The notes beneath the pieces were generated by a model. The model was not told where the DNA came from. It did not search any database and was given only the letters and a program-made list of their open reading frames with translations. A stretch of DNA of 33,812 nucleotides from Acidobacteriota bacterium. Lineage in GTDB: Bacteria; Acidobacteriota; Vicinamibacteria; Vicinamibacterales; CAVVIG01. Positions within the stretch are counted from its first letter, which is position 1. Every line of letters starts with the position of its first letter. Positions 2,701 to 32,808 of this stretch are shown here, piece by piece. The position numbers were made by a program, and so were the translations under genes. The DNA is taken from the NCBI GenBank assembly GCA_023265105.1, contig JAHFUJ010000006.1, positions 11,505 to 45,316 of the forward strand, given 5' to 3'.

Positions 2701-2705
2701 GCGAC

Positions 2706-2787
2706 GGATTCAGGGTTCCGGGTTCAGGGTTCCGGGTTCTCGGTTCTAGGTTCTGGGTTTGGTTCAGGATTCGGGGTTCGAGGTTCG
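2706..2787. repeat. Iterated-word array, twelve GGGTTCN-type words of mostly 7 nt
   Basis: Consecutive words read GGATTCA, GGGTTCC, GGGTTCA, GGGTTCC, GGGTTCT, CGGTTCT, AGGTTCT, GGGTTT, GGTTCA, GGATTCG, GGGTTCG, AGGTTCG. The last position varies and the core is nearly fixed. Unlike the other four arrays it has no inverted partner here. It fills the lpxK-acyltransferase junction and supplies the last 21 codons of lpxK, including its stop. Confidence 0.85.
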
Positions 2788-5153: not shown

Positions 5154-6249
<1,096 letters not shown>

Positions 6250-6250
<1 letters not shown>

Positions 6251-6322
6251 GGATGTAAGGATTTAAGGATGTGAGGATTTAGTCTCACGTCCAATCCTCA
6301 AATCCTTAGATCCTTAGATCCT
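6250..6322. repeat. Iterated-word palindrome between gap and pgk (8-nt period)
   Basis: Two 30-nt arms (6250-6279 and 6293-6322) around a 13-nt loop, made of repeated AAGGAT-type words. Comparing the left arm with the reverse complement of the right gives 27 of 30 matches, with mismatches only at arm positions 6, 14 and 22, exactly one per 8-nt word. It begins at the last base of the gap stop. AT-rich against a GC-rich genome. Confidence 0.9.
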
Positions 6323-6338
6323 GAAATTGACGGTGTCA

Positions 6339-7535: not shown

Positions 7536-7654
7536 CTGGTGATTGTCGATTTGATGATTGTCGATTTATTTGGCCATTGAATCCCATCGAATCCAGTCGA
7601 TAAATCGAAAATCACCAGATCAAATCGAAAATCACCAGATCGAAAATCGACAAT
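7536..7654. repeat. Iterated-word palindrome between pgk and tpiA
   Basis: The left part repeats GATTGTCGATTT (7541-7552 and 7556-7567). The right part has two tandem copies of the 20-mer at 7602-7621 and 7622-7641, then a partial third (gaaaatcgacaat). The right part is roughly the reverse complement of the left, differing at one word position (GATTGTCG against GATTTTCG) and by a short CTGGT gap. It reaches the tpiA ATG and so replaces its ribosome-binding region. Confidence 0.85.
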
Positions 7655-8816: not shown

Positions 8817-8845
8817 ACGTGGCGTCCGGCTTCAGCCGGACCATT
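8817..8845. repeat. Dispersed palindrome 3' of secG
   Basis: GTCCGGCTTCAGCCGGAC at 8824-8841 with a 5' acgtggc flank: an inverted copy of the VRLKPDATY-type element. It sits 15 bases after the secG stop and could act as a transcript-end hairpin, though no T-run follows. Confidence 0.85.
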
Positions 8846-9433: not shown

Positions 9434-9541
9434 GCGTGTCAAAGCCAGGCACCGACGCCAGGTGCCAGGGTGGGGGACGCCGGGATTGTAGTTGGATTCT
9501 ACGGGTGGAGCGTGGATGGAGCCTTTGTCCTAGTCGTATTA
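9434..9541. other. Non-coding spacer before the fic control region
   Basis: No gene is recognised. A short palindromic pair GGCACC (9449-9454) and GGTGCC (9461-9466) lies here, followed by GT-rich sequence. Base composition becomes more AT-rich toward the Fic gene. Confidence 0.5.
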
Positions 9542-9625
9542 TATGGCTGGATATGGCTGGACTTATGGCTGGAGCCAGCGTATAAAGGAATTTTGATTTA
9601 TAGCTGGATATGGCTGGATTTATGG
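9542..9625 (+). promoter_or_regulatory. fic promoter flanked by a 27-nt direct repeat (candidate operator)
   Basis: Two near-identical 27-mers, 9542-9568 and 9599-9625, each built on TATGGCTGGA words (the first begins TATGGCTGGATATGGCTGGA); they differ at two positions. A candidate promoter TGGACT (9558-9563), 17-nt spacer, TATAAA (9581-9586) lies between them: copy 1 covers the -35 and copy 2 covers the region after the start point and the ATG of the Fic gene. This is the layout expected for autorepression by the Fic protein's own C-terminal winged helix (inference). Confidence 0.5.
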
Positions 9626-17876: not shown

Positions 17877-17889
17877 GGCGAATCCTCTC

Positions 17890-17930
17890 GTCCGGCTCGA
17901 GCCGGCGTCATGGTCCGGCTAGAGCCGGAT
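17890..17930. repeat. Two dispersed palindromes in the MmgE-TolB spacer
   Basis: GTCCGGCTCGAGCCGG (17890-17905) and GTCCGGCTAGAGCCGGAT (17913-17930). The loops are CGAG and TAGA-like variants of the common TGAA. They lie just upstream of the MmgE/PrpD start, inside the presumed transcript. Confidence 0.85.
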
Positions 17931-17978
17931 ATTACAACCACAGATGAGGACATGCACTGCAGGATCATACCGCGGACG

Positions 17979-23503: not shown

Positions 23504-23602
23504 ACCAATAGAATACCATGCACCGGGATGTTCAGCGGCATGGTCATCCATCAGCGCTTCCACCCGGCTCGCGAGCTACTCCGAAAAGCTCCTGTACTTG
23601 AC

Positions 23603-23674
23603 ATAGCTTTCAGCTCTCAGCTGTCAGCTAACACCTCCAGCACTGAAAGCTGAGAGCTGACAGCTGATAGCTAT
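23603..23674. repeat. Iterated-word palindrome (7-nt period)
   Basis: 27-nt arms 23603-23629 and 23648-23674 around an 18-nt loop, built from TCAGCTN words. The arms match at 24 of 27 positions; the three mismatches fall at arm positions 7, 14 and 21, exactly one per word. This is the clearest case of the element class in the window. Confidence 0.92.
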
Positions 23675-25677: not shown

Positions 25678-25939
25678 CGGTCCGGCGAAGAACGGTCCGG
25701 CTCTAGCCGGACACTACGTACAGAATCGCAGGGCTGAAGTCCTGCGCCACGCCACGAACGGTCCGGCTGAAGCCGGACACGACGTACAGACTCGCGGGGC
25801 AAAAGAGCGTGTGAAAAAATGCGACGTGTTAGCGCAGAGCACGCAGAGCTCGCCGAGAATCCTTAGAATTTTCTTCTCCGCGGCCTCGGCGGTCTCGGCG
25901 GTTAGCGGTTTCTTCACAGGCTCTAACGTCCTACGCCAC
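25678..25939. repeat. Repeat-filled spacer between TolC-like and adaptor genes
   Basis: Two dispersed palindromes, GTCCGGCTCTAGCCGGAC (25695-25712) and GTCCGGCTGAAGCCGGAC (25761-25778), each followed by an ACNACGTACAGA flank, 66 bp apart. Between them is a separate hairpin CGCAGG (25727-25732)/CCTGCG (25741-25746). From about 25846 to 25918 a different dispersed sequence runs (ctccgcggcctcggcggtctc type). An open frame crosses all this, but it is repeat sequence and not protein-like. Confidence 0.8.
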
Positions 25940-30057: not shown

Positions 30058-30101
30058 GTCGGCGGACGGCCGGCGCCTCGGCGGAGGCTGTCGGGCGGAT
30101 G

Positions 30102-30130
30102 AACGTGGCGTCCGCCTTCAGGCGGACCAT
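30102..30130. repeat. Dispersed palindrome after the RND pump, variant stem
   Basis: GTCCGCCTTCAGGCGGAC at 30110-30127, preceded by aacgtggc. The stem has G-C swapped at two paired positions relative to the commoner GTCCGGC form and still pairs fully. It lies between convergent genes and may serve as their shared transcript end. Confidence 0.85.
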
Positions 30131-30725: not shown

Positions 30726-30860
30726 TTCACTCCGGGGTCCCTCCCCCGGACGTTCACTCCGGGGTCCCTCCCCCGGACGTTCACTCCGGGGTCCCTCCCC
30801 CAGACGTTCACTCCGGGGTCCCTCCCCGGACGTTCATTGCGGGGTGCCTCCCCCGGCGGG
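30726..30860. repeat. Five tandem 27-bp hairpin units in the RRM gene leader
   Basis: Units start at 30726, 30753, 30780, 30807 (26 bp) and 30833 (degenerate, 28 bp). Each contains CCGGGGTCCCTCCCCCGG or a close variant, which folds as CCGGGG with CCCCGG. Copies 1 and 2 are identical, copy 3 has one change, copy 4 lacks one C, and copy 5 is diverged. The array starts 15 bp upstream of the RRM ATG. Confidence 0.92.
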
Positions 30861-31071: not shown

Positions 31072-32235
31072 ATGCCGGTGCGACTTGGCTCCGAACGCCT
31101 GCTCGACTCCCCCGCCCTCGACGGCAAGCGCGTCGGCGTCGTCTGCAACCCCGCGTCGGTCGACGGCCACTTGCGACACATTGCCGACCGTCTGGCCGCG
31201 CATCCTCGCGCGCGGCTGGCGGCGATCTTCGGCCCGCAGCACGGGTTTCGATCCGACGTCCAGGAAAACATGATCGAGACCGGACACGGCGAGGACGAAA
31301 TTCGCCAGGTGCCGGTGTATTCGCTCTACAGCGAGACGCGACAGCCGACGGCCGCGATGCTGCGCGATCTCGACCTGCTCGTCATCGATCTCCAGGACGT
31401 CGGCACGCGCATTTACACCTACATCTACACGATGGCGAACTGCCTGATGGCCGCGCGGGCACACGGCGTCAAGGCCATCGTCTGCGACCGGCCGAACCCG
31501 ATTGGCGGCCTCGCTATCGAAGGCCCCATGCTCGCGCGCGGGTTCGAGTCGTTCGTCGGCCAGTATCCGATTCCCATGCGGCACGGCATGACGATCGGCG
31601 AGCTGGCGCGCCTCTTCAACGAGGAGTTCGGCATCGGCGCCGACGTCGACGTGATCGCGATGGAGGGATGGCCCCGCGAGATGTACCACGACGCCACCGG
31701 GTTGCCGTGGGTGCTGCCGTCGCCAAACATTCCGACGCTCGACACGGCGATCGTCTACCCGGGGACCGTGCTGTTCGAGGGGACCAACGTGTCGGAAGGC
31801 CGCGGCACGACGCGGCCGTTCGAGCTGGTCGGGGCGCCGCGGATCGTCGCCGAGCGGTTTGCGGATCAGATGAATCGGCTCGAGCTGCCGGGCGTCCGCT
31901 TCCGGCCGGCGGTGTTCGAGCCGACCTTCCACAAGCACGCGCAGCAACAGTGCGGCGGCTGCCAAATCCACGTGCTCGATCGCGCGCGCTTTCGGCCGGT
32001 CGAAACCGGGGTGGCCCTCGTGGCGGCGTTCCGCGCGAGCGATCCAGAGCGCTTCGCGTGGCGCGATCCGCCGTACGAGTACGAGCGCGAGAAGCGGCCG
32101 ATCGACATCCTGGCGGGATCGGCCGAGGTGCGCGAACAGATCGAGCGCGGCACGCCGGCCCGACAGATCGCGCGATCGTGGGAGGGGGCGGTCCAAGCGT
32201 TCCTGAAGATCCGAAAACGCTTCCTGATGTACTGA
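31072..32235 (+). CDS. DUF1343 protein (NamZ-like exo-beta-N-acetylmuramidase family)
   Basis: 387 aa. Characterised family members release terminal N-acetylmuramic acid from peptidoglycan fragments. Conserved blocks: VCNPASVDG, IFGPQHGFRSDVQENMIE, LVIDLQDVGTRIYTYIYTM, CDRPNPIGGLAIEGPM, MRHGMTIGELARLFNEE, SPNIPTLDTAIVYPGTVLFE and GTNVSEGRGTTRPFELVGAP. No signal peptide is present, whereas many members are exported, so a cytoplasmic recycling role is likely (inference). The start at ATG 31072 (MPVRLGSERL) fits family N-termini. Its stop codon is the first part of a palindrome shared with the convergent DinB gene. Confidence 0.9.
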   Translation: MPVRLGSERLLDSPALDGKRVGVVCNPASVDGHLRHIADRLAAHPRARLAAIFGPQHGFRSDVQENMIETGHGEDEIRQVPVYSLYSETRQPTAAMLRDLDLLVIDLQDVGTRIYTYIYTMANCLMAARAHGVKAIVCDRPNPIGGLAIEGPMLARGFESFVGQYPIPMRHGMTIGELARLFNEEFGIGADVDVIAMEGWPREMYHDATGLPWVLPSPNIPTLDTAIVYPGTVLFEGTNVSEGRGTTRPFELVGAPRIVAERFADQMNRLELPGVRFRPAVFEPTFHKHAQQQCGGCQIHVLDRARFRPVETGVALVAAFRASDPERFAWRDPPYEYEREKRPIDILAGSAEVREQIERGTPARQIARSWEGAVQAFLKIRKRFLMY

Positions 32236-32333
32236 ATCTGGTAATTGGGTAATCTCGTGATCTGGTAATTTATTGGACGATTTCAATCACCGAATAAATC
32301 ACCAAATTACCAGATCACCCAATTACCAGATTC
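32234..32333. repeat. Iterated-word palindrome filling a convergent gene junction (8-nt period)
   Basis: 41-nt arms 32234-32274 and 32293-32333 around an 18-nt loop. Words of ATCTGGTA/ATTGGGTA type repeat every 8 nt; the arms differ at only a few fixed word positions (3, 5 and 8). The left arm starts inside the stop of the DUF1343 gene and the right arm ends inside the stop of the facing DinB gene. It is AT-rich and could end both transcripts. Confidence 0.9.
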
Positions 32334-32808
32334 ATTTCTTTCGGGCGAAGCCTCGCGCTACTCGGATCTGATCCGCGTGCTTGTGCGCGTGGACGGCGTA
32401 GATCTCCAGCCAGCGCGAGATGGGGTAGGGGCCGACCTCGGTGTGCGTCCCCTCCCGCGCCCAGTCCGTTTCGCTCATCCGATCGAGAAGCTCCGCCGTA
32501 GTACTGCGCGCCGATTTGAACGCCTCGAGCGAGGCGTCGATCGGCCGATCGTAGTGCAGCCGCCGGGCGAATTCGTCCTGGTCGTAGCCGACAATCTGCG
32601 GCCGGTCGGTCGCGATCAGGAGTCGCAGCCGGATCGCTGACGTCATCTCGCTGTCGGCGAGATGGTGCACGATCTCGCGTGCGGACCACTTGCCGGACGC
32701 CGGTCGCGCGTCGAGCTCTTCTTTTGTGGCGCCGGCGAGCGCGGCGGCAACCACGCGGTAGCCCTCTTTGTACTGGTCGATAAGTTTCTTGCGGGTGTTT
32801 GTGTCCAT
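32332..32808 (-). CDS. DinB-family protein (damage-inducible/YfiT-like superfamily)
   Basis: 158 aa. KWSAREIVHHLADSEMTSAI (40-59) holds the first metal-ligand His (His49), and LEIYAVHAHKHADQIRVARG (135-153) the other two (His140, His144). Sequence is quite different from the DinB gene at 21018, so the two are not recent duplicates. ATG 32808; the upstream continuation in frame is not family-like. No strong ribosome site. Function in the superfamily varies; no substrate is proposed. Confidence 0.88.
   Translation of the reverse strand: MDTNTRKKLIDQYKEGYRVVAAALAGATKEELDARPASGKWSAREIVHHLADSEMTSAIRLRLLIATDRPQIVGYDQDEFARRLHYDRPIDASLEAFKSARSTTAELLDRMSETDWAREGTHTEVGPYPISRWLEIYAVHAHKHADQIRVARGFARKK

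Follow-up and report, generated by a model that had tools for sequence, protein, structure and literature searches.

An intergenic palindrome of TCAGCTN words in an Acidobacteriota genome is probably a gene-less copy of an S23-type mobile element

The intervening sequence (IVS) of the Coxiella 23S rRNA contains heptamers, GACAGAT and GACAGAA, whose last base is degenerate (Warrier et al., PMC4990558). Its stem is cleaved by RNase III, and excision from the transcript by this enzyme is known for IVSs (PMC4990558). IVSs encode the protein S23; one S23 protein is a toroidal homopentamer (PMC4990558), and the family, PF05635, has earlier been called Avd-like (PMC10053308). Intergenic arrays of 7-nt words have been described separately, as the cyanobacterial STRR and the Beggiatoaceae TAACTGA repeats (PMC4679880). 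In the open-access literature we found no report linking S23 genes with word arrays across genomes, and matching that literature by the repeat letters themselves gave chance matches only.

We analysed a 33,812-nt stretch of DNA (hereafter, the window) from an Acidobacteriota bacterium, whose assembly is an incomplete MAG of 4.96 Mb in 452 contigs, 80% complete. The feature of interest is an intergenic palindrome at 23603..23674 (L161:15107-15178), with an AbrB-like/PIN pair on one side and a pilin-like gene on the other. It consists of two arms of 27 nt each and a gap of 18 nt. The left arm (23603..23629, forward strand) is an inward-reading word array, ATAGCT-N-(TCAGCT-N)2-TCAGCT, or ATAGCTtTCAGCTcTCAGCTgTCAGCT; the right arm (23648..23674, reverse strand) is the inverted array, (AGCTGA-N)3-AGCTAT, or AGCTGAgAGCTGAcAGCTGAtAGCTAT; and the centre between them (23630..23647, forward strand) is AACACCTCCAGCACTGAA. 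Both the sequence and an inverted-repeat scan confirm the claim of an earlier note on this DNA that the arms match except at positions 7, 14 and 21. At all three positions the opposed bases are the same (T.T, C.C and G.G). The complementary ends are able to form a stem, as seen in the scan and in the RNA fold, whose energy of -37.4 kcal/mol (z = -5.0) was equalled by none of 200 shuffles. The single type of match in an Rfam search was a tRNA.

The window palindrome thus has the intergenic tandem 7-mer arrays that define STRR and TAACTGA repeats, with inverted pairing on top, and its arms are inverted arrays of a word used by an S23 clade. The site is intergenic, and not an insertion in an rRNA helix. 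Because no S23 (PF05635) ORF lies between the arms, the centre being 18 nt, we file this copy as a gene-less relative of IVSs rather than as an IVS. Its core is 94% identical over 68 nt, arms and near-identical centre included, to another copy in the host genome (L026:7806-7873). An orthologous empty site was sought in the congener G001, whose flank is too diverged (only 72% identity, in the coding part only).

Whole-genome pattern searches of the host found the exact triple word TCAGCTNTCAGCTNTCAGCT at 307 sites (148 forward and 159 reverse) and the reversed control pattern at 0, so the window array is not a chance occurrence. The remaining host counts come from ~0.65 Mb of contigs, half of which were picked for having matches; these hold 39 array clusters, the majority composed of an inward-reading array, a centre and an inverted array. 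Positions 1-6 of the TCAGCTN word are 82-99% conserved and position 7 is free, in agreement with the word rule proposed in the earlier note, a fixed 6-mer plus a free base. The check suggested there, the phase of mismatches in other genomic copies, gave the same phase: in 29 TCAGCT palindromes sampled in the host genome, 70 of 91 mismatches fall on N, at a rate of 0.65, versus 0.00-0.09 at the six fixed positions. The locking of mismatches to one phase is therefore genuine, and it holds for the whole family.

Between the two arms, the free bases vary almost independently. Complementary ones number 18 of 116 in the inner register, which is not above chance, and snap-back copying of one arm from the other was rejected on this ground; in the pairing-maximising register the figure is 38/108 against 27.4 expected, a choice of register that biases it upward. 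Since the free bases are about independent, the data are better fitted by a dispersed element whose two arms vary independently than by the process envisaged in the earlier note, which would copy and reverse-complement words and is not needed. Same-base oppositions over the 29 palindromes show a slight excess (36/108 versus 26.9 expected, P about 0.03).

TCAGCTN arrays are found in many phyla. In five lineages (Omnitrophota L076, Holophagaceae L077, Geothrix L079, Terriglobia L090 and L150), forward and reverse TCAGCT arrays 330-480 bp apart enclose one ORF of ~120 codons, and this ORF is PF05635, the 23S rRNA intervening sequence protein (S23). TCAGCTN arms are also present at the S23 genes L268 and L290. 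PF05635 is present in 34/40 relatives of the host and in 26 of 28 genomes of many phyla that were picked solely for a TCAGCTN array, versus none of 14 control genomes. Arms were scored against 288 control windows taken at the same loci, with the 99th percentile as threshold (1% of controls pass); 81 of the 99 S23 genes of relatives exceeded it, as did 27/30 in ~20 other lineages that range from Planctomycetota and Chloroflexi to Gottesmanbacteria. Heptamer arrays were seen by eye on both sides of all eight plasmid S23 genes (8/8), and the alignment score was at least 19 in 6/8. The arm period is 7 at 60 genes, 8 at 14 and 9 at 5; arms were not detected at 17-18% of S23 genes. The full element is an array of a 7-9-nt word, an S23 gene of ~120 codons, and the same array inverted. 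The variation in other 7-mer S23 arms is only weakly concentrated in one phase (146 versus 125 expected); the one-free-base rule is not general: within the scope tested it belongs to the TCAGCT family alone, and it is weak in other words.

The word follows the S23 protein. Words vary among genomes and among S23 genes within one genome, and close S23 proteins across genomes share a word: in 57 of 82 comparisons the nearest S23 protein in another genome has the same arm 6-mer, against 21 on average and 36 at most in permutations. On the S23 tree, which has few columns and many unresolved forks, TCAGCTN, TCAGTTN and TTAGCTN arms largely form one neighbourhood spanning Acidobacteria, Holophagae and cyanobacteria, with L076 outside its word's neighbourhood; AGTCAGN unites a host-genome gene with Nostoc genes; and AAGGATTT, GGGTAATT and AAAAGTT are each in their own clade. 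Period labels are clustered on this tree, with 0/500 shuffles as low, both for 7 and for 8.

The host genome itself has about ten S23 genes. The start of one of them, on contig C439 (MQDFKNL...), is immediately preceded by a TCAGCTN array, and the other side of the gene falls in an assembly gap. A de novo inverted-repeat scan of the host also recovered palindromes of other words, namely GGGATTN, TGGTAATY, AAGGATTT, GAATTNN, AAAAGGN, CGATTGTC and 9-mers, and the words at host S23 genes (C159, AAGGATTT; C33, CGATTGTC/TGGTAA; C5, GGGTTCA; C195, AAAAGGN) are words of gene-less palindromes. Three such palindromes, none assigned a strand, lie in the window: one of the 8-mer AAGGATTT at 6244..6328, the word of the C159 gene; one of CGATTGTC / TGGTGATT words with the inner end TTTATTTGG at 7536..7638, the words of the C33 gene; and one of the 8-mer TGGTAATY at 32233..32334, with related words at the C33 gene and at S23 genes of relatives. 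A one-sided 7-mer array, GGGTTCN (2705..2787, forward strand), has the word that flanks the C5 gene on both sides. Overall, 36/39 gene-less palindromes share an 8-mer with the host's own S23 arms. Without the TCAGCT family the count is 13/16, and none of 29 other genomes gave more than 7, a comparison in which the host is helped by also having the most S23 arms.

Other repeats were noted alongside these. At L018:4906-5107, L024:1558-2005 and L167:6911-7066, TCAGCT palindromes enclose a second element, AGCCTGTGAAGAAA...TTCTTCACAGGCT, which contains words of the 9-mer CGCAGAGNN and has apparent 5-bp duplications, CTCAG and CTGAG. A REP-like dispersed unit, GTCCGGCTTCAGCCGGACACTACG, occurs in the window at 757-866, 8820-8842, 17888-17940, 25690-25720 and 30100-30125, and also in coding regions, where it reads VRLKPDATY (ORFs 626-1741 and 686-1645). 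At 9541-9619 the 10-nt word (A/T)TATGGCTGG forms two stretches in one shared orientation, and at 30726-30856 a 27-bp tandem repeat, TTCACTCCGGGGTCCCTCCCCCGGACG, has 4.9 copies.

Mobility is seen at plasmid sites for which filled and empty versions exist. The filled site in Trichormus and Scytonema plasmids is GTTAAAAA-GTAAT-(AAATCAG...S23...TTCTTCTTT)-GTAAT-TAAC, with a two-word difference between the left arms of the two; its empty counterpart in Aulosira and Tolypothrix, at ~97.5% identity, is GTTAAAAAGTAATTAAC, and the 5-bp duplication is GTAAT. In a Nostoc plasmid the filled site is AGG-TTCTA-(AATCAGGAGTCAG...S23...TTCTGGA)-TTCTA-GTTATG, with the 5-bp duplication TTCTA, and the empty counterpart is AGGTTCTAGGTTATG, which has one extra G. 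That is, S23-bearing elements insert cleanly, with a 5-bp duplication, at these two sites. A third with/without site, between cas6 and cas4 of Pseudanabaena, is too diverged for a junction. S23 elements lie between these genes in CRISPR loci of Pseudanabaena galeata (L311, pPg_01) and Anabaena sp. 90 (L315, pANA02), the latter type I-D by its cas1d annotation, and a related Pseudanabaena plasmid (L326) has cas6-cas4 without the element. In Azospirillum lipoferum 4B, an S23 element with period-7 arms occupies helix 45 in one 23S gene, while other 23S copies of the same strain lack it, from which we conclude that classical IVSs belong to this same class of elements. Target duplications gave no significant signal for gene-less host copies (16 shared 5-mers versus 9.3 in shuffled data, maximum 19), and none for the S23 elements of relatives when pooled (12 versus 11.7). 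Demonstrated mobility is thus limited to S23-bearing elements, at plasmid sites of cyanobacteria.

We interpret the window palindrome as a non-autonomous copy of an S23-type mobile element that lacks the gene, and put the probability at about 0.78. The earlier note knew of no named element with such mismatches; the arms are those of S23/IVS-type elements, and the Coxiella IVS heptamers were already on record (PMC4990558).

Several other origins were weighed against this interpretation. The host genome contains a TA-flanked MITE of ~125 bp, TA-ATCCCGGACG...TTTTCGGAG-TA, and the left flank of the window palindrome (~23572..23602, forward strand; TACTCCGAAAAGCTCCTGTACTTGACATAGCT), which runs on into the first word, matches its type A end (consensus TACTCCGAAAAGCTCTTGTGTTGACGTAGCT) with a score of 24, where the 99% level of random windows is 11. 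A matching right end, and with it TA on both sides, is absent. Judged from its flanks, the window copy lies at an end of a TA-flanked MITE that has degraded, and has kept one such end; the match to a known transposon end that, by the earlier note, would refute its reading is thus partly there, on the left. The palindrome might then be simply the interior of an IS630-like, TA-target MITE, its words being passive internal sequence spread with it, and 12 of the 39 sampled TCAGCT copies do carry one or both TA-flanked ends. However, the other 27 have no such end and yet show the same arms and boundaries; among the 40 relatives the ends are confined to the host genome, save for diverged MITEs in G013 (L235, L237 and L239; TA-ATCCCGATGGGCACTTG...CAAGTGCCTTTCGGTG-TA), whose ends resemble those of the host MITE but which hold no heptamer arrays; and the same words accompany S23 genes in other phyla. 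Because the ends are found on about a third of the copies, and because the related MITE of G013 is free of heptamers, we take the MITE to be a carrier that acquired a word palindrome. MITE ends were rejected as the whole explanation, and an origin as MITE interior is unlikely.

It is about as unlikely that the palindromes are immobile, that is, intergenic RNA hairpins selected as terminators, mRNA stabilisers or RNase III sites, which grow in place by word slippage. Their folds are very stable, they occupy intergenic sites near stop and start codons, and a signature of slippage does exist, in the often identical adjacent words of G015 (0.571 versus 0.339) and in the long pure arrays of other bacteria. 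But selection for pairing alone would not hold different loci and phyla to one word and one mismatch phase, adjacent free bases in the host are nearly unrelated (identity 0.299 versus 0.263), centres and whole copies are common to unrelated sites, the words are tied to S23 genes and clades, and the window hairpin is followed by no T-run. Slippage probably changes the word number on top of dispersal. Long, pure TCAGCTA arrays of one orientation in Moorena, Pseudoalteromonas and Chitinophagaceae (L098, L129 and others) look like ordinary slippage growth. Mobilisation as REP/BIME-like palindromes by RAYT (Y1) transposases would account for dispersed intergenic palindromes, and RAYT genes exist in the host genome; yet their presence does not track array abundance, since G012, with 38 arrays, has none and many array-free genomes have one. 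In addition, neither a GTAG nor a CGTC tag is present in the window palindrome, and the arms are word arrays whose length varies. The RAYT transposase was rejected as the mover, and we consider this origin very improbable. Equally improbable is an origin in which a telomerase-like or template-switching polymerase extends the two 3' ends at a double-strand break with words, after which the ends are joined. Such a process would explain the strict order of forward then reverse TCAGCT arrays (47 to 3 for pairs less than 60 bp apart, 19 to 1 for those less than 200 bp apart) and the near independence of the arms' free bases, but not the centres common to different loci, where random ones are expected, the S23 gene at the junction of full elements, or the clean 5-bp duplications at two S23 sites; no RVT_1 match was found in the host genome. 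De novo addition at breaks was rejected because centres are shared between loci.

For a gene-less copy of an S23-type element, a mechanism can be outlined from the protein. The predicted structure of the L090 S23 has four helices (pLDDT 92) and matches 2gsc and 2rld, of five chains each, and more distantly Avd (4dwl) and a DGR ribonucleoprotein (8ube). Single-contig genomes with 6-10 S23 genes yielded no RVT_1 match, on which ground a reverse transcriptase was rejected as obligate partner. In the TRAP protein, a ring of identical subunits, each subunit reads one (G/U)AG repeat, and the spacer bases are free. The pentameric four-helix-bundle ring of S23, with its Avd fold, may similarly bind single strands of its own word array, reading about one word per subunit through fixed contact bases and tolerating spacer bases; TRAP is an unrelated protein with an 11-subunit ring and no mobility, and is an analogy only. 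The number of words per arm peaks at 4-5, which is compatible with one word per pentamer subunit but is no proof of it. Binding would mark the element RNA or DNA for mobilisation, such that gene-less arrays could spread in trans. The free bases would be those that S23 does not read, and variation accumulating at the unread base could produce the once-per-word mismatches of the TCAGCTN family. In the host genome, one palindrome lineage would also have ridden inside the TA-flanked MITE.

More broadly, S23 elements may constitute a pan-bacterial mobile superfamily. Each ring clade would have a word of its own, 7, 8 or 9 nt long, with roughly one word read by each subunit, and would mobilise gene-less palindromes in trans along with its own element; cyanobacterial and other heptamer repeats would be footprints of the superfamily, and rRNA IVSs a special case of insertion. 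We give this wider proposal even odds. Three unexplained things would then have a single origin: scattered heptamer arrays, the orphan S23/PF05635 protein and rRNA IVSs. With dozens of S23 proteins each matched to a word, there would be a natural protein-to-word code, in which recognition by an Avd-fold ring is directly testable, and the defined filled/empty plasmid pairs make the old question of IVS movement testable as well.

Compared with known systems, the window palindrome resembles IS630-type MITEs and REPIN/BIME in being a short, non-autonomous, dispersed palindrome, and has one TA-flanked MITE end; it differs in its word-array arms, in the lack of a RAYT link, and in that most copies are without those ends. 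The Avd protein of DGRs (4dwl, 8ube) is a pentameric RNA-binding partner with the S23 fold, but DGRs need a reverse transcriptase, whereas S23-rich closed genomes have no RVT_1 match. The STRR and TAACTGA repeats are likewise intergenic arrays of 7-nt words, and TAACTGA is NAACTGA, the reverse of TCAGTTN; unlike the palindromes, they were reported to be direct repeats, inverted in a single case, that might act as regulatory sites, and no link to S23 was made (PMC4679880). The 23S rRNA IVSs with an S23 ORF, known from Coxiella, Leptospira and Azospirillum (PMC4990558), have inverted terminal repeats that form a stem around the S23 gene, with tandem heptamers of degenerate last base in Coxiella and period-7 arms in Azospirillum. 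The window copy, by contrast, is intergenic and gene-less, with arms that are purely word arrays, and whereas IVSs have been described as rRNA elements, the word-array class extends genome-wide and includes gene-less versions.
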